Part shown: in pieces, positions 17,813 through 46,187 of the stretch
Layout of the letters: the number at the start of each line of letters is the position of its first letter
Numbering within the stretch: position 1 is the first letter of the stretch
Source: Actinomycetes bacterium
GTDB taxonomy: Bacteria; Actinomycetota; Acidimicrobiia; Acidimicrobiales; RAAP-2
Assembly: GCA_021781335.1 (NCBI GenBank)
Contig: JAJXXA010000023.1
Span: 1-46,235, forward strand
Length of the DNA stretch: 46,235 nucleotides
Reading direction: 5' to 3'
Position numbers and translations under genes: made by a program
The notes under the pieces: generated by a model
What the model was told of the DNA's origin: nothing
Databases searched by the model: none
What the model saw: the letters and a program-made list of their open reading frames with translations, nothing else

Positions 17813-17839
17813 ACTGAAAAGAGGGCGCCGTGGCCGCGA

Positions 17840-17880
17840 GGTGTCCTTGACGTTGCGTATCAGCGTCAACGTGCGACACC
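17840..17880. terminator. Hairpin between convergent genes
   Basis: The inner stem TTGACGTTG/CAGCGTCAA (17847-17855 with 17861-17869) is a 9-bp stem with one G-U pair and a 5-nt CGTAT loop. The outer arms GGTGTC (17840-17845) and GACACC (17875-17880) also pair. It sits 28 bp after the GNAT stop and before the convergent hydrolase stop, so it could end transcription from both sides. There is no U-tract, so intrinsic termination is uncertain. Confidence 0.5.
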
Positions 17881-17968
17881 GCGTCGCCCCGGTCGCTCGA
17901 AGCGGTGATTTCTCAGTGTCTGAGTGGCGCGACGCCCGACACCATGAGGTGGACCTCGCTCGTTGAAC

Positions 17969-19102
17969 TCACCCGTCGGGACACGTACCCGCGACGGGCG
18001 CGAGCGTGGTTTGACTTGTGATGGTCGAGAGCCCCGCGACATTGCCCGCAACGTGTAGCGCGGCCAGTGCGGAGGTGGAGTGTCGCAAGTACGCGTTGAG
18101 GAAATCAATGCTCACCTGGGTCACCACGTTCTGGGCTGGGCCCGGGGGCACGTATGCGCTCAGGTGGGTCTGGCCGATCATCGACAGGTAGTACTTGGGT
18201 TGCGTGGCTTCGTTGTACAACTGGACGCTGCACGTCACCGGATTCATTGTGAGGTCGTTGGTGCCCTGGACGACCAGCAGTGGCGTGTTGGGCGTCGTGA
18301 AATATGAACCATGGAACCAACTGAGTTCCGCACCCGAGAGGATGATGGCGGCTTTCACGCGCGGGTCACGACAACACGAGTTGGCGACCGCGGCGAGGGC
18401 GACGTCGCCGCCATCGGACTGTCCGATGACGCCTATCTCGTTCGCGTCGATGAGTCCCGAGAGAGTCCCGCTGGCCGCAGTGCTGTCTGCTAACAGCGAG
18501 GTGATCACGTAGCTGAGGTCCGCGGGATGATGAACAATGTCGGTGCGCACAACGCCCCCCGGGGCGTTTGGTGAGGTGAAGGGATAAGCGGGATCGGCGA
18601 CGACGTAGCCCGCCGCCGCCCAGGAGGTCAGCAGTCGCGCGTACGCCTCGGGTGAGATGTCAAAGCCCTGGGAGAACACGACGAGGGGGTAGGGCTTCGC
18701 CTCGCGCAGGGGCGGCGCGCCAACGATGTCGACGCCACCGGGACTTCCCGCTATTGGATAGCGAACGGTCGTGGGTAGTGTCCTGGCGGCCAGACCGTTG
18801 GCGGCGGGTTCGTTGATGTTAAAGGTGATGGATCCAACGGCGTAGGGGGCATGGGGTGGGACGGTCGTTGACGTCGAACTCGAACTCGAAGGGGGCGTTG
18901 AGGTTGCGGTGGAGGTCGGTGTCGAAGGAGAGAAGTGCTGCTTCACGGCCAAGACGGTGAGGACCACGAGCAACGCGACGAGAACCGCCACCACCCTCTG
19001 TCGGCGGCGCACATTGACTCGGCGGCCGTGCCTCGGTGATGACATCGGCGACAGCGTAGCAGCACCTTTCTCGCGAGGAGACGAAGACTGCGAAGCGTGC
19101 AC
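17969..19102 (-). CDS. Secreted or membrane-anchored alpha/beta hydrolase (dienelactone/PAF-acetylhydrolase-like)
   Basis: 377 aa. A basic N-terminus leads to one hydrophobic segment (about 38-54), then a Ser/Thr/Pro-rich linker (57-85), so the catalytic domain faces outside the membrane. The nucleophile elbow is IGQSDGGDVA (G-x-S-x-G). The acid is probably Asp in VQGTNDLTM, and the base His in IGQTHLSAYV. The oxyanion strand LVVFSQGFD resembles platelet-activating-factor acetylhydrolase and chlorophyllase-like esterases. The start at GTG 19102 or ATG 19045 (MSSPRHGRRV) is undecided; both leave the anchor intact. Substrate unknown. Confidence 0.82.
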   Translation of the reverse strand: MHASQSSSPREKGAATLSPMSSPRHGRRVNVRRRQRVVAVLVALLVVLTVLAVKQHFSPSTPTSTATSTPPSSSSSTSTTVPPHAPYAVGSITFNINEPAANGLAARTLPTTVRYPIAGSPGGVDIVGAPPLREAKPYPLVVFSQGFDISPEAYARLLTSWAAAGYVVADPAYPFTSPNAPGGVVRTDIVHHPADLSYVITSLLADSTAASGTLSGLIDANEIGVIGQSDGGDVALAAVANSCCRDPRVKAAIILSGAELSWFHGSYFTTPNTPLLVVQGTNDLTMNPVTCSVQLYNEATQPKYYLSMIGQTHLSAYVPPGPAQNVVTQVSIDFLNAYLRHSTSALAALHVAGNVAGLSTITSQTTLAPVAGTCPDG

Positions 19103-19836: not shown

Positions 19837-21600
19837 TCAACGACGAGGCGGGGGTCCCTTACGTGGTGGGGGAGGTGGCCGACGCTGGGGTGGACCTGTG
19901 CGTGGATAGTCGGGATGCCATGATGACCTGCGACGAATGGCACGTCTGCGGATAGCTCGACGTCGCGCCACACCAAGCAGGAGCAGCGTGAGCACGATGA
20001 GCACGATCAGCAAGTAGACGGCGTAGGTGCGTGCGTGTCCACCGAGAAAACCGGGCGCCTGCGTCGTCGTTGTGGCGGGCGTCGTGGTCGTTGTCGATGT
20101 CGTGGTGGTGGTCGTACCGGGGGTCGTGCCCGCGGCGAAGATCTGAGCCGCGAGTTGCGCGGCGGCACAATTGGCGGTTGGTGTCGCAGTGACGAGCAAG
20201 GGGAGTTGTGGGGCCTCAGGTAGGTCGAACAGGGTCGTGGGGACCGCGTCGGCCATGACGGTCTGACCCGCGACATTCGGGTGCAGGTGATCGGGATTGA
20301 AGTAAGGAGCGAAAGGGGTCGTGGACTGGCAGCTGCCGTTGTAGACATCAGCCATCACGGCGTTCAGATTGAGGACGCCATCAAAGCCGGAACTGGGTGA
20401 GAGCATCCACGTATTGACTGCATTCAGAATCGCCTGTTCGCCCGGTGTCCAGTTCTCCGCCAGGTCGTGGTCGGCGGCCGTCGACGTGGCGCGGGGCAGA
20501 AGGGTGATGCCGTACACCTTTATCCCGCGAGCGTGTGTGGCGGCAATGACCTGGCGCATACCCGCTTCGATGCTCGGTGCGGTGCCGTAGGGAGGTATGG
20601 GGTGAGCCTTCAGCCCACCCGCGCCGAACCAGATGTCGTTGGTGCCGAGCAAGAGGACGACTGCCTTCACACCGGGTAACGCCAGCGCGTCGTCCTGGAG
20701 ACGCGTCACTCCCGGTAACCCGCCCCCGCTCTTGTCAAACGAGGCATAAGGCGGAAAGGCCGTCAAGGTGTTCGCCGCGATGCCCTCATTGACCACCGAC
20801 ATCTGTTGGTTTGGGGGGAGTTGGTTGATGCGTGACTGCAACGCGTCGACCCAACTGAACCCGTTGTTCGTATAGCCGTACCCGTCGGTGATGGAGTCGC
20901 CGAAGGCGACGATGGTGCCCTGGGCCGGGGAGCCTCCGACCGCGATCGCCGAGAGCCACCGCATGGTCCAATTCGTCAGTTGCGGATTGAAGAGAGAACT
21001 CGTAGCCGCCGTGGTGAGGTTCCCCGCGCCGTTGCTGGTCGCGTACGAGTCCACACGACCCTGGCAGCAGTAATGGACGCTGACGGTCGCCGAACCGCGC
21101 ACGGCGATGCTGATCGCGAGCGACTCACCCGCGCTCACCGTCATGGCCACCGGGTCACTGGTCACTTGAGAGTACGGAGCGATGGTGACACTCGGACTGT
21201 TGTTGAACGTCACGGGAACGAAGGTCCCCGGGGTCACCGTGGCGCCAGATTGTTGCACGCCAACGGTGACGGCACTGAACGTCGTCGGGGTTGTGCTCCA
21301 GAGATTCGAGAACGTGAATTCAAGTGAACTTCCACCGACGGCGACGGTGGCGATGTCGCGCGTCGTGGAATTCGAGGTCACGCCGACCCCTAGGTCGGTG
21401 GGCGACGTCCAGGTCGTTTGCCAGGCGGGCGCGGAACTCGTAGTCGCCGATGCCGGTGGACTTGATGTTACGGCCCACCCCGTGAGGGTGAGGAGCAGCG
21501 CAAACATGCGTACGAACAGCCACCGGCCACGTGGAAATAGCCGAGTAGCAGCGAACACCGCGACACGCTTGGACCGAAAACGTTGTTTCGCCACGACCAC
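19837..21600 (-). CDS. Membrane-anchored SGNH/GDSL hydrolase with N-terminal beta-sandwich domain
   Basis: 587 aa surface esterase or lipase. A long signal sequence ends near ASA (50-52). Residues about 58-215 form a beta-rich domain seen in secreted GDSL hydrolases. The SGNH blocks are FGDSITDGYG (nucleophile Ser236), the conserved Gly around NEGIAANTL, LLGTNDIW (Asn) and DHLHPN (Asp-x-x-His). A Thr-rich linker, one transmembrane helix and a basic, Pro-rich cytoplasmic tail with two tandem RRRAI units follow. This sortase-like layout lacks an LPxTG motif, so it is probably simply membrane-tethered. The substrate may be an acylated cell-envelope polymer. GTG start. Confidence 0.88.
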   Translation of the reverse strand: MVVAKQRFRSKRVAVFAATRLFPRGRWLFVRMFALLLTLTGWAVTSSPPASATTSSAPAWQTTWTSPTDLGVGVTSNSTTRDIATVAVGGSSLEFTFSNLWSTTPTTFSAVTVGVQQSGATVTPGTFVPVTFNNSPSVTIAPYSQVTSDPVAMTVSAGESLAISIAVRGSATVSVHYCCQGRVDSYATSNGAGNLTTAATSSLFNPQLTNWTMRWLSAIAVGGSPAQGTIVAFGDSITDGYGYTNNGFSWVDALQSRINQLPPNQQMSVVNEGIAANTLTAFPPYASFDKSGGGLPGVTRLQDDALALPGVKAVVLLLGTNDIWFGAGGLKAHPIPPYGTAPSIEAGMRQVIAATHARGIKVYGITLLPRATSTAADHDLAENWTPGEQAILNAVNTWMLSPSSGFDGVLNLNAVMADVYNGSCQSTTPFAPYFNPDHLHPNVAGQTVMADAVPTTLFDLPEAPQLPLLVTATPTANCAAAQLAAQIFAAGTTPGTTTTTTSTTTTTPATTTTQAPGFLGGHARTYAVYLLIVLIVLTLLLLGVARRRAIRRRAIRRRSSWHPDYPRTGPPQRRPPPPPRKGPPPRR

Positions 21601-22215: not shown

Positions 22216-22230
22216 TAGGCTTCGAACGTG
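22216..22230 (+). promoter_or_regulatory. Candidate leaderless promoter of the two-component operon
   Basis: TAGGCT (22216-22221) ends six bases before the GTG start codon at 22228, placing the transcription start on or near the start codon. The best -35-like sequence is TGACGG (22194-22199), 16 bp upstream. The same TAGGCT hexamer precedes pknB. Confidence 0.4.
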
Positions 22231-22902
22231 GACGCTCCTCGGATACTCCTTGTCGACGATGAGGTACCGCTGCGCGCGCTCGTGCGTCCGTATCTCGAAG
22301 CCGAGGGTTACGAGGTCCTTGAAGCCGCGACCGGCCCCGCCGGGCTCTCCCTTCTCGAGGCGGGTGACATTGACCTCGCGATCGTCGATGTGATGCTGCC
22401 CGGCTTTGATGGCATTGAGTTGGTGAAGCGTATACGCGTCACCTCTAGCGTCCCCATCATCCTGCTGACGGCACGTCGAGAAGAGGGTGAGCGTATCGCC
22501 GGACTTCGTCTCGGCGCCGACGACTATGTGACCAAGCCGTTCTCCGTTCCCGAATTGGTGGCGAGAGTCTCGGCGCACTTGCGACGTGCAAAAGTTCTCA
22601 CTGAGAGTGACGAGCGCGTAGTGCAGATGGGAGAGATCGTTATTCATCCGTCGTCGCGAACGGTCACTGTGAACGGCGCCGGAGTAGAACTGACGCGCCG
22701 AGAATTCGATCTCCTGATGGCGCTCGCACGTCATCCGAATCGCGCCATCAGCCGCACCGATCTCCTGCGTGAGGCGTGGCCCACGACCTACGTTGTTGAA
22801 AAGACCGTGGACGTCCATCTGGCGTCACTGCGCAAGAAGATCGGTCCCTCGCTCAAGGTGACATCGCTTCGAGGGGTGGGCTATCGCTTGGAGACGTCGT
22901 GA
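22228..22902 (+). CDS. OmpR/PhoB-family response regulator
   Basis: DNA-binding output of a two-component system, 224 aa. The receiver domain (about 4-118) has the acidic pair VDDE (9-12), phospho-acceptor Asp54 in AIVDVMLPG, the switch Thr/Ser in IILLTAR, and Lys103 in VTKPF. The C-terminal winged helix (about 128-222) has the typical LTRREFDLLMALARHPN and RGVGYRLE hairpin. The GTG start is supported by the receiver beginning at residue 5. It overlaps the kinase gene by 4 bp (GTGA), so both proteins are made from one transcript. Confidence 0.95.
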   Translation: MDAPRILLVDDEVPLRALVRPYLEAEGYEVLEAATGPAGLSLLEAGDIDLAIVDVMLPGFDGIELVKRIRVTSSVPIILLTARREEGERIAGLRLGADDYVTKPFSVPELVARVSAHLRRAKVLTESDERVVQMGEIVIHPSSRTVTVNGAGVELTRREFDLLMALARHPNRAISRTDLLREAWPTTYVVEKTVDVHLASLRKKIGPSLKVTSLRGVGYRLETS

Positions 22903-24242
22903 GAGACCCGATGTCAACGAGCCTTCGAACCCGAGTCGTCGCCGTCGGCGTCGCCACCACGATTGTCGCGCTGCTGGTCACTTTTTTCATCGTTGGATCG
23001 TTGGGTTCGAAGAACAACACGAAGAGTCAGCTCATCGAAGACGCCGCTATCGCGAGGGTGCTGGCGAACAACGTGGGGAGTCCGCCCTCGGCCGCGAACT
23101 TGAGGTCATTCCATCAACTGCTCATTGCGGAGAAGCAGCACGTGACGGTGCACAGCGCGTCAGGCACCTTCTCGCTAGGCGTGCCGATCGAGAAGGATGT
23201 GACATCGACCCGGGCTTCGGTCCCGATAGATGGCGGCACGCTGACGGTGACCAGTGCCGTCGACACGAGCCTCGATCCACCGATTGAGTTCGTCTACGTT
23301 GCGCTCGCCGTCTTGCTCGTCGTCCTCGCCAGTGTTGGCATTGCAGACCGCACTTTGAGTCGTGAGACGCGAGAACGAGTTGATCAGGCGGTGCTCGCCG
23401 CCGAGCGCGTTTCGCTCGGGGATTTCACCGTTCGCGTGGGTGGAGGTGGGCCCGAGCCAATCGCGCGTTTAGGACGCGCGTTCGACACCATGGCGAGCCG
23501 ACTCGAATCATTCGATCGCGACCAACGTGAGTTCCTGGCGGACTTGGCCCACGAGGTCGCCACGCCAATTCAAGCGATCTCGGGATTTGCCCAAGCGGTC
23601 ATTGATGGAACCGTGGCGAAGGACGTAGCCCAGTCCATGATCGAGAGTCAGACCAGCCGCCTTTCGGAGCTGCTTGATGAACTCACTCAACTCAGGAATA
23701 TCGACACGCCCTACGGCGCAGAACGCGAGGACATCGACATCGAAGAGATTTGTCGGTCCCTCTACCAGGAATTCACGACAACGGCGCAAGAGTCCGGTGT
23801 GGTGCTCGATTACCAGTGTGAGCACATGTCGCTGCGCACCGACCGACGACTCGTCGAGACGGTGATGAGGAACTTCTTGACTAATGCGTTTCGCTACACC
23901 CCCTCGGGCGAGAGCGTGAGTATTCGCGGTGAGAAGGTGCACGACCACGTGGTGCTGTCGGTGACCGACACCGGTCCGGGCATCGCGCCCGAGCACCAGC
24001 AGAGGATCTTCGATCGCTTCTATCGAACCGAGGAGGCGCGTGACCGCATTAGCGGTGGTACTGGTCTCGGACTGACCATTGCGCGTAGCGCGGCCTTCAG
24101 CCTCGGCGGCCATATCGAATTGGATAGCGCCATCGGTCGCGGGAGCACCTTTCGCCTCGTAGTGCCGATCGCTCACAACGCGCCCACCGCAGAGGTCACG
24201 ACCGACGTGTCGAAGTCCGACGACCCTCGAATCGCGTTGTAG
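22899..24242 (+). CDS. Sensor histidine kinase, HAMP-containing
   Basis: Membrane sensor partner of the preceding regulator, 447 aa. TM1 is at about 13-34, an extracytoplasmic loop of about 95 residues spans 35-130, and TM2 is at about 131-148. A HAMP domain (about 150-205) and the HisKA domain follow, with phospho-accepting His218 in DLAHEVATPIQA. The ATPase domain has the N-box NAFRYTPSG, G1 DTGPGIAPE, F-box FDRFYR and G2 GGTGLGLTIA. The start is GTG 22899 (overlapping the regulator stop) or ATG 22911. The small loop lacks a recognisable ligand domain, so the signal is unknown. Confidence 0.95.
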   Translation: MRDPMSTSLRTRVVAVGVATTIVALLVTFFIVGSLGSKNNTKSQLIEDAAIARVLANNVGSPPSAANLRSFHQLLIAEKQHVTVHSASGTFSLGVPIEKDVTSTRASVPIDGGTLTVTSAVDTSLDPPIEFVYVALAVLLVVLASVGIADRTLSRETRERVDQAVLAAERVSLGDFTVRVGGGGPEPIARLGRAFDTMASRLESFDRDQREFLADLAHEVATPIQAISGFAQAVIDGTVAKDVAQSMIESQTSRLSELLDELTQLRNIDTPYGAEREDIDIEEICRSLYQEFTTTAQESGVVLDYQCEHMSLRTDRRLVETVMRNFLTNAFRYTPSGESVSIRGEKVHDHVVLSVTDTGPGIAPEHQQRIFDRFYRTEEARDRISGGTGLGLTIARSAAFSLGGHIELDSAIGRGSTFRLVVPIAHNAPTAEVTTDVSKSDDPRIAL

Positions 24243-24278
24243 CGACAGTGCATTGACGATCGCGAACGGCGTCACGTG

Positions 24279-24404
24279 ATGGCCGTGAAATGGCGCGGCT
24301 CGTTTGAGACGCTCACGCTCGGGGAATGCCGGCGCGTGCTGAGGTGCGCTGGCGCCATTCAGCAGGTCGAATTTCTTAGTAGTAGCCAGGACTTATGCAC
24401 GTGA
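24279..24404 (+). pseudogene. Possible relic of a PNPOx-like flavoprotein N-terminus
   Basis: A 41-codon frame in the gap after the histidine kinase reads FETLTLGECRRVLRCAGAI, resembling the start of pyridoxamine 5'-phosphate oxidase-like F420/flavin proteins (L-x-x-x-E-C-x-x-L-L). It stops at TGA before any core fold. It may instead be a chance frame. Confidence 0.2.
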
Positions 24405-24430
24405 GTGCGAGAAATTGCCTGACACGTAGA

Positions 24431-24459
24431 TTGCACTACTACGTCTGACGTAGTACTCT
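24431..24459 (+). promoter_or_regulatory. Leaderless promoter with embedded PadR-type operator
   Basis: TTGCAC (24431-24436) and TACTCT (24454-24459) form a -35/-10 pair with an exact 17-bp spacer. Inside the spacer and reaching into the -10 is TACTACGT-CTG-ACGTAGTA (24437-24455), a perfect 8-bp inverted repeat. The -10 ends six bases before the GTG of the PadR gene, implying a leaderless mRNA. PadR repressors normally bind such dyads at their own promoter, so autorepression is the natural reading. Confidence 0.75.
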
Positions 24460-24465
24460 CTGATC

Positions 24466-24801
24466 GTGGCTAAAAACTCACAACACCTACTTCGTCGGCC
24501 CAACGATCCACCGACACTTTTGCTCACGAGTCTGGCTTCGGGGCCCAAGCATGGTTATGCACTCTTGCGAGACATCGAGGACTTTGCGGGTGTGACCCTA
24601 GGCCCAGGCACGCTCTACGGCGCGATTGCCCGACTTGAGGAACTCGGACTCATCGAACCAATGACGGGCGTTGATCGCCGCCGACCCTATCGGATCACGT
24701 CGTCGGGTGTAGCTGCACTGCGCGAAGCGAACGCGCAGATGCGACGTCTGGCAGAAGTTGGCGCAGCTCGACTTCGACTTGTCGGAGGGTCAACGACGTG
24801 A
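24466..24801 (+). CDS. PadR-family transcriptional regulator
   Basis: 111-aa winged-helix repressor of the short PadR-s2 type. Diagnostic segments are LLTSLASGPKHGYALLRDIE (helix 1-2), LGPGTLYGAIARLEELGLIE (recognition helix and wing) and RRPYRITSSGVAAL. The C-terminal dimerisation helix is short. The GTG start is fixed by the leaderless promoter immediately upstream. Its stop overlaps the next gene by 4 bp (GTGA), so the pair is translated together. PadR proteins commonly repress a cotranscribed membrane protein, as here. Confidence 0.92.
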   Translation: MAKNSQHLLRRPNDPPTLLLTSLASGPKHGYALLRDIEDFAGVTLGPGTLYGAIARLEELGLIEPMTGVDRRRPYRITSSGVAALREANAQMRRLAEVGAARLRLVGGSTT

Positions 24802-25730
24802 GACGCGATCGAGACGTTCTCTCAGTGCTGCGTTGGTACCCCAAAGAATGGCGTGAGCGCTATGGTGACGAGTTCGTGGCACTCGTGCACGAAGGCTTCG
24901 GCGAGGGACCGCTCCCCCTCTCGCTTCGTCGATCGATTGCCTTGTCGGGGTTACGTGAGCGTGGCCACTACTCAGGGTTGATCGGCGAACGCAGCTCACC
25001 GAACGTGCGGCGACGCACGGGATCATTGGTTGTGCTCGTCGCGTGGGCACTCACGTCCGTGGGGGTCATGAGTTTCTCTAAGAGCGCCGAGCACTTCTCG
25101 AACGCCTTACCCTCGAATTCGCGAACCCTGGCTCAGGTGGCGTACGACGTGGTGGCAGCGGCGGGACTCGTTGGATCACTCTTCGTCGCCGTCGGAGCTG
25201 GCATCGCGGTACCGGCATTCGTTCGTTTTCTTCGAGGTGGTGGTTGGCTGCGTGTGCGCCGGCTCTTCGCGGGACTGGCGCTAACGGGTGTCACGCTCGC
25301 GGTGGCCACCGCTGCGCTTGGTCTCTGGGCGCATCATCTGGACCAGGCCCAAAGAAACGGTGCAGACCACATGTACGTCGCTGCGTTCCTGCTCTACGCG
25401 TGCGCGGTGGTGTTCACCATCGCCGCCGTGACGCGGGGTGCGATTGTCGTCGTCACACAACTCGAGCTCAGTCCCGGGGTGCTGCGAACAGAGGGCACGA
25501 TTGCGCTTGCGGTGTGTGTCACGACGCTCGCCGTCGCGACGGGCGCTTCACTATGGATCGCGCAGATGAGTCTTCACGCCCCCTGGTTCTTTCAGGGCAC
25601 CACTCCCGGCGTAGCGGTGTCACCTTGGTCACCCCCTGTGGTGGTGACGCTCGGTGTGTTGATAGCGGCAACGACGAGTGCCCTTTTTGGCGCGTCTCGG
25701 CTGGCTAGGACATGTCGACGAATTCATTGA
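24798..25730 (+). CDS. PadR-associated multi-span membrane protein
   Basis: 310 aa of unknown function. The N-terminus LSVLRWYPKEWRERYGDEFVALV is the conserved cytoplasmic head of a family of actinobacterial membrane proteins encoded beside PadR regulators. After it come about six hydrophobic helices (near residues 77, 112, 153, 185, 230, 275). No transporter or enzyme motif is visible. Coupled to padR by overlap and probably silenced with it. It may take part in an envelope-stress or drug-response module, but that is inferred from context only. Confidence 0.75.
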   Translation: MRRDRDVLSVLRWYPKEWRERYGDEFVALVHEGFGEGPLPLSLRRSIALSGLRERGHYSGLIGERSSPNVRRRTGSLVVLVAWALTSVGVMSFSKSAEHFSNALPSNSRTLAQVAYDVVAAAGLVGSLFVAVGAGIAVPAFVRFLRGGGWLRVRRLFAGLALTGVTLAVATAALGLWAHHLDQAQRNGADHMYVAAFLLYACAVVFTIAAVTRGAIVVVTQLELSPGVLRTEGTIALAVCVTTLAVATGASLWIAQMSLHAPWFFQGTTPGVAVSPWSPPVVVTLGVLIAATTSALFGASRLARTCRRIH

Positions 25731-26941: not shown

Positions 26942-27337
26942 GTGAATACACCGAAAGCACAAGACACCCACACGCCCACGCAATTGATCGACGCACGAAT
27001 TAAGGCGTTGGATGACTGGCGAGGAGAGACACTGGCCCGTCTTCGTGCTCTCATCACACGAGCCGATCCCGAAATCGTCGAGGAGTGGAAATGGGAGAAT
27101 CCGGTGTGGTCTCATGGCGGAATCATCTGTACCGGGGAGGTCTACAAAAAGGTGGTGAAGATGACCTTCGCGAAGGGTGCCTCGCTGGACGACCCATCGG
27201 GGCTGTTCAATTCGAGTCTCGAAGGCAAGGTTCGACGCGCCATTGACGTCCGCGAGGGTGAATCCATCGACCCAGTCGCACTCACCGCCCTCGTACGCGA
27301 AGCCGTGAAGCACAATATCTCTAGTCGAAAGAAGTAG
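26942..27337 (+). CDS. DUF1801-family protein (YdhG-like)
   Basis: 131 aa, DUF1801. Family hallmarks are VEEWKWENPVWSHGGIICTGE (about 46-66), VVKMTFAKGASLDDPSGLFN and GKVRRAIDVREGESID. Related proteins include the Bacillus frataxin-like iron chaperone, but function in this subgroup is not established. TGTGCTAAT, a -10-like sequence, ends eight bases before the GTG start, consistent with a leaderless message. A second DUF1801-type gene lies convergently 176 bp away. Confidence 0.85.
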   Translation: MNTPKAQDTHTPTQLIDARIKALDDWRGETLARLRALITRADPEIVEEWKWENPVWSHGGIICTGEVYKKVVKMTFAKGASLDDPSGLFNSSLEGKVRRAIDVREGESIDPVALTALVREAVKHNISSRKK

Positions 27338-27924: not shown

Positions 27925-28378
27925 GACGTCCTCCATTCCCGACGACTGCACGTTGTCGCGAAGATTACCGGACCCACCTGGAATCTGCTTCTCCATTTCG
28001 ACTCATTCTTCGCAGCGTCGCCTCACGACTCGTTCGTAGAGCGGGGCTGGTGGCCCACTGCGGCCGCGCGGCCAATGCGGCGACTGCGCGTGGTCGGTGA
28101 TTGCGAGGAGCCGGCGGACGGCTTGGAGACACCCGCCGGCGGGCTTCGCCGAACGGAACTGATCGGTTTACGACCAACCTTTAGTGGACCTTGAGGGACA
28201 CAATAAGAACCGATAGCCCACGTTCCCTGGAGCGCCATCGACGACCGCACTCAACAGAGCATTTGCGGAAGAGAATTGAATGCCTTTCGAAGGTGCCCAA
28301 GCGACGACCGTTGGGCTTCAAATGACAATCACGCCCCCGCAAGACCTGGAAAGTACATATTTGTACTATAGTGGCCAT
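27925..28378. other. 454-bp intergenic region between DUF1801 gene and XRE cassette
   Basis: Holds the divergent promoters of the minus-strand DUF1801 gene and the XRE gene. GCCGGCGG (28110-28117) and CCGCCGGC (28133-28140) form a perfect 8-bp inverted repeat with a 15-nt loop. The flanking DNA is locally GC-richer (28045-28145) and then turns AT-rich towards the XRE promoter. No intact gene is seen. Confidence 0.45.
28352..28369 (+). promoter_or_regulatory. XRE-gene promoter with overlapping dyad
   Basis: AGTACA-TATT-TGTACT (28352-28367) is a perfect 6-bp inverted repeat overlapping TACTAT (28364-28369), a good -10 that ends nine bases before the ATG. This is the arrangement expected for a self-repressed antitoxin promoter with a very short or absent leader. 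Confidence 0.6.
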
Positions 28379-28702
28379 ATGGTGACCGGAGACCTAATCA
28401 AAGAGGCTCGATTGCGGGCAGGCCTCACGCAACGCGAATTGGGTGCTCGCCTCGCCAAGGCTCAATCCGTGATCGCCCGCTGGGAACGAGACGAGGTCTC
28501 ACCGAGTCTTGAGACATTGCGCGAGGTGGTTCGCGCGTGTGGATTCGATCTCACATTCTTCATGTCCAAGTTTGATGATTCCAATGTGACGATCATCGAT
28601 CAGCATCTTCGAATGACGCCGGCCGAAAGATTCGCAGATCTCATCGCCCGTGTTCGGTTCCACGAACAGCGTGAAAAGGTGAAGGCGAGACGCCGTGCCT
28701 GA
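28379..28702 (+). CDS. XRE-family helix-turn-helix protein (putative antitoxin)
   Basis: 107 aa from the ATG at 28379. The HTH_3 domain fills residues 1-60: GDLIKEARLRAGLTQRELGA, then LAKAQSVIARWERDEVSPSL, with the recognition helix SVIARWE. The C-terminal half (MTPAERFADLIARVRF) is helical and basic and may contact the partner protein. An upstream in-frame ATG (28280) would place the promoter and operator inside the gene, so it was rejected. The stop overlaps the next gene by 8 bp, implying translational coupling with the nucleotidyltransferase. Probably represses its own promoter through the dyad at 28352-28367. Confidence 0.85.
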   Translation: MVTGDLIKEARLRAGLTQRELGARLAKAQSVIARWERDEVSPSLETLREVVRACGFDLTFFMSKFDDSNVTIIDQHLRMTPAERFADLIARVRFHEQREKVKARRRA

Positions 28703-29228
28703 CATGATCCCTTATCGTCCCGACGAAATCCTTGAGGTACTCGAGCGTCATCACGTTCTTTACGTCGTCATTGGTGGACTCGCCGCCGAGTTGCGCGGAT
28801 CCCCCTACGTCACTCGCGACGTCGACGTCACGCCGGCACGTACCCGCGAAAACTTCACGAGGCTCGCGGCCGCGTTGAAGGAACTTGACGCCAAGCTTCG
28901 AGTTCCTGATTTGGAAGAACCATTGGTGATACCACTCGATGAGCGAACATTCGGACAATGGACGACCTGGACTTTCGTGACCAAGCACGGTTATCTCGAC
29001 ATCGCACTTCTTCCCGATGGGACACGAGGTTACGACGACTTGCGACGTTCAGCTACTCGAGAGCAAATTACCGACACCGTGACGATCTTCGTGGCTGCGC
29101 TCGCCGACGTCATTCGTTCCAAGGAAGCAGCCGGCCGCGAAAAAGACCGTGCGGTACTCCCGATTCTCCGACAGGTCCTCGAGCGCTCGCATAGGAAGGA
29201 TCGTGGCGACCAAGGGATTGAACTTTGA
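28695..29228 (+). CDS. Nucleotidyltransferase-fold protein (putative toxin partner)
   Basis: 177 aa with a minimal NTase fold. VIGGLAAELRGSPYVTRDVDV supplies the GG loop and the D-x-D metal ligands; GYLDIALLP may give the third carboxylate. The C-terminal DVIRSKEAAGREKDRAVLPIL is the conserved helix of this NTase group, also found in AbiEii/MenT-like toxins, some of which add nucleotides to tRNA 3' ends. Overlaps the XRE gene and ends 181 bp before the 3' end of tRNA-Leu. All catalytic residues look intact. Toxicity and tRNA as substrate are inferences from relatives and context. Confidence 0.82.
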   Translation: MPDMIPYRPDEILEVLERHHVLYVVIGGLAAELRGSPYVTRDVDVTPARTRENFTRLAAALKELDAKLRVPDLEEPLVIPLDERTFGQWTTWTFVTKHGYLDIALLPDGTRGYDDLRRSATREQITDTVTIFVAALADVIRSKEAAGREKDRAVLPILRQVLERSHRKDRGDQGIEL

Positions 29229-29409
29229 CTCTCAGATGTAGCGAGACCCGTACATGAGCGCCGTTGGGACTCGACCGACAGTGGAGCTCGAGCGACAAAC
29301 GCAAGAAACCACGATCTTCACCCATTGCGGCTCCACGAATTTCAACTTCGAATCGAGCGTCTCGCACCTTCACATCCGTGGTCCACTAAACGGGACACGG
29401 GTCACGGAG

Positions 29410-29493
29410 TGGGCGAGGGGGGACTTGAACCCCCACATCCTTTCGAATACAGGCACCTGAAGCCTGCGCGTCTGCCAATTTCGCCACTCGCCC
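29410..29493 (-). tRNA. tRNA-Leu (CAG)
   Basis: Read on the minus strand, the 7-bp acceptor stem is GGGCGAG/CTCGCCC (29493-29487 with 29417-29411), with discriminator A at 29410. The anticodon loop TTCAGGT gives CAG between CAGGC/GCCTG stems. A long variable arm marks it as class II, and the T arm contains GGTTCAAGTCC. CCA is not encoded. It lies just upstream of fhaA and divergent from it, the same place leuT occupies in mycobacteria. Its 3' end faces the XRE-NTase cassette. Confidence 0.95.
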
Positions 29494-46075: not shown

Positions 46076-46118
46076 TGTGACTTTGGAAGCCGACTTTCGT
46101 GACTCCCCCGTGGTGGGG
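46066..46118. repeat. Repeat copy C, overlapping the tRNA-Ile 3' end
   Basis: Direct repeat of 44421-44473 (40 of 53 identical). Contains ACTTTTGTGA (46071-46080) and ACTTTCGTGA (46093-46102), and ends inside the acceptor stem of tRNA-Ile. A site reaching into a tRNA 3' end is typical of attachment sites. Confidence 0.65.
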
Positions 46119-46187
46119 CTAGTAAGAATCGAACTTACGACCTCGTCATTATCAGTGACGCGCTCTAACCGACTGAGCTATAGCCCC
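46111..46187 (-). tRNA. tRNA-Ile (GAT)
   Basis: Minus strand. Acceptor GGGGCTA/TAGCCCC, D arm TAGCTCAGTCGGTTAGAGC, anticodon loop CTGATAA (GAT) in a CGTCA/TGACG stem, T arm with GTTCGATTC. Discriminator A at 46114 and an encoded CCA (46113-46111). Class I, 77 nt with CCA. Corresponds to ileT, which follows gyrA in mycobacteria. Its 3' end faces the second XRE-NTase cassette. Confidence 0.97.

Follow-up and report, generated by a model that had tools for sequence, protein, structure and literature searches.

How a small repressor gene may be governed by its own product, with hardly any DNA to spare, is the question raised by padR (24466..24801, plus strand) in the window, that is, the whole stretch of 46,235 nucleotides of an Actinomycetes contig that was analysed. 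The gene starts with GTG directly behind a putative promoter whose spacer is occupied by a palindrome, and an earlier reading of the letters (the sequence-only reading) had taken this for a compact leaderless promoter with the operator built in. Our comparisons suggested that padR probably represses itself and the neighbouring membrane-protein gene via this palindrome over its own promoter, and we put the probability of an autorepressed leaderless promoter at roughly 0.85. The surroundings include a protein resembling GDSL lipases, whose final part contains a threonine-rich stretch (19837-21600), response regulator and histidine kinase genes (22228-24242) ending about 220 bp before padR, a DUF1801 protein (26942-27337), a helix-turn-helix gene (PF01381) overlapping the start of an open reading frame without a Pfam match (28280-29228), and the minus-strand genes of tRNA-Leu (29409-29493) and tRNA-Ile (46111-46187). 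We take the pair at 28280-29228 to resemble a toxin-antitoxin type arrangement.

At the locus itself, a -35 hexamer, TTGCAC (24431..24436, plus strand), is separated by a 17-bp spacer (24437-24453) from a -10 hexamer of the TAnnnT form, TACTCT (24454..24459, plus strand), and six bases, CTGATC (24460-24465), lie between the latter and GTG, as had been counted earlier. The putative operator is the dyad TACTACGT-CTG-ACGTAGTA (24437..24455), which is present just as first reported, with two perfect 8-bp arms (24437-24444 and 24448-24455) around the loop CTG, and which spans the entire spacer and shares the first two bases of the -10 hexamer. The sequence-only reading had gone further and superimposed the repressor and polymerase sites on the start codon; the operator does overlie the promoter, but it stops ten bases (24456-24465) short of GTG. 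A lone extra half-site, ACGTAG (24424..24429), of uncertain significance is located upstream of the -35 hexamer. The start of padR is well constrained, because an in-frame TAG (24451-24453) lies upstream and GTG 24466 is the sole in-frame ATG, GTG or TTG before residue 19, where the PadR domain begins. The first T of TAnnnT (24454) is positioned 12 bp 5' of this GTG, like the TANNNT about 12 bp before the start that a genome survey presented as a mark of leaderless genes in Actinobacteria, a survey whose available part does not address repressors or operators (PMC3160421). From this position, and from a distance of 7 nt past the -10 hexamer, transcription is predicted to start at the G of GTG (24466, plus strand), give or take 2 nt. 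The promoter had also been called well formed, which overstates the quality of the hexamers, each of which shares only 3 of 6 bases with the E. coli consensus (TTGACA/TATAAT) and is weak on that consensus; a sigma-70 scan of 23800-25400 called no site. The promoter call therefore rests on conservation, and TTGCAC and TACTCT agree with the TTG and TAnnnT pattern conserved among relatives.

The product of padR, with 111 aa, is a repressor of PadR-2 size. PF03551 was matched at E 8e-12 (45.4 bits against a cut-off of 27), and the nearest solved chain is 4ejo_A (E 7.2e-08). Both the length and the absence of a second domain agree with the size rule for PadR-2 proteins (about 100 residues, no second domain) taken from an excerpt of PMC6457526, and the PadR-2 signature tyrosines are present as Y31 and Y51. 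Y51 is invariant in all 26 aligned PadR proteins and Y31 is not; by position, Y51 corresponds to a DNA-contacting tyrosine of LftR (same excerpt), and residue 52 directly follows it within TLYGA. Four alignments were used in this work, comprising 26 of 27 padR proteins (A1), 33 of 38 partner proteins (A2), 44 of 56 plus the window (A3), and 40 of 80 loci plus the window (A4).

By itself, the dyad is weak evidence. With arms of 8 and loops of 0-10, and with nested readings of one dyad counted repeatedly, the 46-kb window holds 19 perfect dyads against 15, 12, 9, 13 and 7 in five first-order resamples, which is not beyond chance, and at least one perfect dyad occurred in 4.4% of 2000 resampled intergenic regions. 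That perfect 8-bp dyads are so common in 46 kb is what could be said for a chance palindrome. The specific 19-mer is far rarer, with one match in the window at up to three mismatches against 0.03 in shuffles. A search for the dyad elsewhere in the genome, which the sequence-only reading had proposed, was run on the organism's own assembly (2.02 Mb, 88.8% complete) and found no second 19-mer site with fewer than three mismatches, so that the simplest regulon would be the padR operon alone. As the window alone would not decide, the comparison with relatives carries the case.

A protein search of 61 genomes found padR relatives in 49. At 14 loci with proteins 59-82% identical (L010-L023), the dyad was present within two mismatches immediately before the start in every case, and at one further locus (L024, 62% identical) it was not found. 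In one of the 14 (L017) the dyad is lengthened to perfect 19-bp arms around 3 bases and extends to the start codon. In genome G020 (L032), the padR match is spread over two frames and the dyad has decayed to four mismatches, and operator and repressor seem, from their sequences, to decay together. A pattern search of 80 same-genus genomes revealed a site within two mismatches in 33. Exact sites were directly 5' of padR in 21 of 21 cases and sites within one mismatch in 25 of 26, as opposed to only 4 of 14 two-mismatch sites. Sites within two mismatches were not enriched when summed over the 80 genomes (37 against 31 for a reversed-pattern control), and the functional support from dyad sites thus lies in their exactness and placement only, not in their number. 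The remaining 10 of the 14 two-mismatch sites were considered as further PadR targets and treated as chance, since the control pattern was equally frequent.

The single exception within one mismatch (L070, G029:C16) had been given as padR by an automated count; inspection revealed a MarR-like gene, divergent from another gene and with TACTACGTCGCACCTACTA just 5' of its start, and it was left out of the padR count. At this locus, a nearly identical dyad may be recognized by another regulator. If other winged-helix proteins may read similar sites, the dyad at padR could in principle be bound by another regulator, such as the OmpR-type response regulator (22228-22902) of the two-component system just upstream, with PadR acting elsewhere. 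We consider this very improbable, given that nearly all sites within one mismatch precede padR and that the recognition-helix residue and the operator type change together. The dyad travels with padR across genomes, which supports its earlier designation as a PadR binding motif.

That joint change concerns residue 52. This residue is G in all 74 proteins with the TACTACGT-N3-ACGTAGTA-type operator, whereas in a group of 12 proteins with a TATCG-N5-CGATATA dyad (counted at up to two mismatches; a loose limit of three gives 22) six have E, four have Q and two have G at this position. G alone does not define the operator type, since 23 of the 40 proteins lacking the first operator have it too, and the E or Q at this position may trace to few events through shared ancestry. 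For 7 of the 10 E/Q proteins, TATAGT overlaps the dyad 6-7 nt before the start (read by eye), indicative of relatives in which the operator is changed and the layout kept. Judged from the covariation of residue 52 and from the placement of the site, the padR product is the probable binder of the dyad.

Conservation around the dyad was then analyzed at 28 dyad-bearing padR loci, with L085 left out for having too little upstream sequence and with the nearer of two overlapping dyads picked by hand at L063. The arms hardly vary, except for C/G at base 3 and some T/C exchange at base 8; the three positions between them are unconstrained, and the flanking columns are near background. The hexamer starting at the dyad's last TA ends in T in 25 of the 28, and is followed by the start after 6 bases in 18 and after 7 in 9, the remaining locus (L072) being leadered though its dyad is kept. 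TTG at a spacing of 16-18 bp was observed in 14 of these 28 relatives, compared with a mean of 0.97 in other three-position windows. Because part of this set had been found through the dyad, the test was repeated on loci chosen by protein alone.

For this purpose, genome contigs were scanned with the PadR alignment, with no selection on DNA, and the best 80 of at least 580 loci were retained; these are chiefly from Acidimicrobiaceae and Acidimicrobiales, and also from Mycobacterium, Thermoleophilia, Streptosporangiaceae, Chloroflexi and others. Among these best 80, the dyad occurs within two mismatches at 62 loci and is lacking, at that limit, from 18. A chance palindrome, conserved in this way at loci chosen regardless of DNA, is in effect refuted, and we regard its probability as negligible. 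In 56 of the 62 dyad loci, an in-frame start follows the hexamer after 6 (38 loci), 7 (17) or 8 nt (1), and the other six (L138, L144, L145, L147, L159 and L165) bear the dyad without leaderless spacing; 17 of the 56 have additional in-frame starts, for which the one at 6-8 nt was taken. Within these 56 leaderless-type loci of the best 80, the TAnnnT hexamer is present in 52 and TTG at exactly 17-bp spacing in 26. As the relatives share ancestry, and as some genomes are in both the genus set and the protein-selected set, these counts are not independent. Judged from sequence, many related actinobacteria share this compact arrangement, in which the gene lacks an untranslated leader.

Of nine Shine-Dalgarno-like 5-mers looked for at -20 to -5, not one occurs at the 56 loci of leaderless type (best 80 of at least 580), an absence partly forced by the dyad and hexamer filling that stretch, and such a 5-mer precedes at least one candidate start in 11 of 16 other loci looked at. 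These data bear on a rival explanation that accepts the dyad as the PadR operator but has padR expressed mainly from a leadered transcript begun upstream, either at another promoter or by read-through from the histidine kinase gene (end 24242). The weak hexamers and the empty sigma-70 scan are compatible with it, as are leadered relatives, namely the same-genome paralog L001 and L072, with at least 15 nt from hexamer to start and a Shine-Dalgarno-like sequence. It is nevertheless unlikely, since a TAnnnT 6-7 nt before the start and a TTG at 17 bp are kept though the flanks are not, and since those 56 loci are uniformly free of the 5-mers. The leaderless start is thus favoured by the conserved TAnnnT and by TTG at 16-18 bp, and the laying of the operator over the promoter by the conservation of the dyad together with the TAnnnT overlapping its right end; on both points our comparison sided with the sequence-only reading.

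The paralog L001 (contig C26, about 17814-18101, minus strand) is another padR of this genome, likewise paired with a gene of the partner type; its TAGTCT hexamer lies 19 nt from GTG with GGGAGGGG in between, and its dyad has diverged. At more distant PadR genes (L031, L035, L037 and L038), inspection by eye showed CTAG-containing repeats surrounding a TAGAGT or TAGGCT that lies about 8 nt upstream of ATG, and other branches of the PadR family may commonly have leaderless starts as well.

Two features went beyond what had been claimed before. The first is a second dyad, CTACGnnTTGCGTAG, found within two mismatches over the -35 in 18 of these 56 loci with leaderless spacing (best 80 of at least 580); as the -35 is inside this dyad, each promoter hexamer would sit within its own putative operator. 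At the corresponding position, the window has the lone ACGTAG half-site only (24424-24429). In Acidiferrimicrobium sp. IK (L111), several tandem TACGTCTTGCGT units are located upstream of the promoter dyad.

The second feature is that padR forms a two-gene operon together with the gene of a conserved membrane protein. The partner gene (24798..25730, plus strand; 310 aa) starts with a GTG overlapping the padR stop (GTGA), and its product begins with a three-helix domain (24798..24974, plus strand) marked by LLRWYPxxWRxRYGxE, whose profile matches after padR genes. With the A4 profile, this domain was found after 78 of the best 80 of at least 580 padR genes, and after 38 of the 40 among them not used for the profile. 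The misses are L122, where just 23 bases of contig are left, and L114, with 2500 bases left. Beyond the N-terminal domain, the partner sequence is variable. A model of the whole partner is all-helical, with three short helices and then long ones (mean pLDDT 94.4), the domain helices covering residues 2-13, 16-34 and 41-59; modelled alone, the domain again forms three helices (mean pLDDT 75.9). No convincing match to the partner was found in Pfam, NCBIfam, PDB sequences or PDB folds, the best being DUF6050 (E 0.0061, in one of 33 partner proteins) and GlnII (E 0.021), both rejected as too weak. Neither HAAS nor DUF1700 is among the 22 families listed for the 33 partner proteins at E of 1 or below, and the partner alignments contain no conserved columns corresponding to the GxP motif of the third helix.

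Taking these observations together, we infer the following mechanism. RNA polymerase would use TTGCAC and TACTCT and start RNA at or beside the G of GTG 24466, so that padR would be translated without a leader or Shine-Dalgarno sequence, and translation of the membrane protein would be coupled to that of padR through the overlapping GTGA. Bound to TACTACGT-N3-ACGTAGTA, a PadR dimer would cover the spacer completely and reach onto the margin of the -10, making repressor and polymerase mutually exclusive and keeping the operon low until a signal frees PadR. In the preferred route of release, the partner's cytoplasmic three-helix domain would contact PadR, as has been proposed for HAAS-PadR pairs, and release would turn on both genes. 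This signalling step, drawn by analogy, is the least certain part, and we hold it at somewhat less than even odds. It competes with the possibility that a small ligand bound in the dimer pocket of PadR itself brings about the release, as in LmrR and LftR, with the membrane protein as an effector and not a sensor; this rival touches the signalling step only and leaves the promoter reading as it is. According to the accessible excerpts, the small PadR proteins LmrR and LftR do respond to compounds (PMC4235314, PMC6457526), and a ligand of this kind is a serious possibility, if also short of an even chance. What is conserved in the partner, however, is a short domain at the N terminus, attached to C-terminal parts that vary, and this suits docking or signalling more than a role as effector.

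The locus resembles several known systems, compared here from excerpts of the cited papers. In the acuR-acuI-dddL operon of Rhodobacter sphaeroides, the autorepressor AcuR is encoded by the first gene of a mapped leaderless transcript, the promoter is overlapped by an inverted repeat whose arms are 8 bp long, and mutating the repeat leads to constitutive expression; translation of the leaderless first gene is lower than that of the other operon genes, and the layout is conserved in other bacteria (PMC3017554). The padR locus is similar in layout, with the repressor first in the operon, an inverted repeat over the promoter and no leader predicted, and to that extent may work like AcuR. AcuR, in contrast, belongs to the TetR family, with arms 6 bp apart, soluble catabolic partners and acrylate as co-inducer (PMC3017554). 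As its repressor is a PadR and not a TetR protein, the padR locus is not a member of an AcuR-type class. LltR of Listeria monocytogenes is a PadR-type repressor of its own operon with a membrane-protein gene adjoining, an arrangement like that proposed for padR, but its partner carries a DUF1700 domain, for which the padR partner has no match among the families listed; no palindrome or leaderless start is described for LltR in the available part of that source (PMC6624303). HAAS-PadR pairs, in which a stand-alone PadR is coupled to a helical domain on a membrane protein, have been proposed as an alternative to two-component systems; padR is likewise followed by a membrane-protein gene whose product begins with a short helical domain (three helices modelled; 78 of the best 80 of at least 580 loci), unlike the HAAS proteins in having neither a HAAS or DUF1700 match among the families listed nor a conserved GxP (PMC11237479). 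With these marks missing, the padR-partner pair may work like HAAS-PadR without being a member. LftR controls an efflux pump, unlike padR with its membrane partner. This PadR-2 protein of about 110 aa has two signature tyrosines and binds a partly palindromic operator in its own promoter region, much as the padR product has 111 aa, two tyrosines and a palindrome in its own promoter, and the available part of the LftR source reports no leaderless layout (PMC6457526). The elements, namely a leaderless autorepressor, PadR autorepression and a PadR-membrane protein pair, are thus known, and their combination was not found in open-access print; likewise, no description of this PadR operator or of the padR-partner module was found in the open-access literature.

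A broader reading, which we offer tentatively and would not back at even odds, is that these loci form a widespread, undescribed module of Actinomycetota and beyond, in which a membrane-sensing partner with a new three-helix YPxxWRxRYGxE domain pulls PadR off the DNA, so that one protein pair would stand in for a two-component system. At its most complete, this module would nest each promoter hexamer in its own operator, with one dyad at the -35 and one at the -10, switching between leaderless and leadered starts would keep the operator on the -10, and residue 52 would help to set the operator type. For the family, the analysis provides an operator that is precise and can be tested, in a clade of PadR proteins for which neither targets nor signals were found described in the open-access literature. 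In addition, the same repressor-partner pair would be available for comparison in naturally occurring leaderless and leadered forms. As a partner domain with no family model accompanies nearly all of these padR genes, the signal that relieves repression becomes a direct question.
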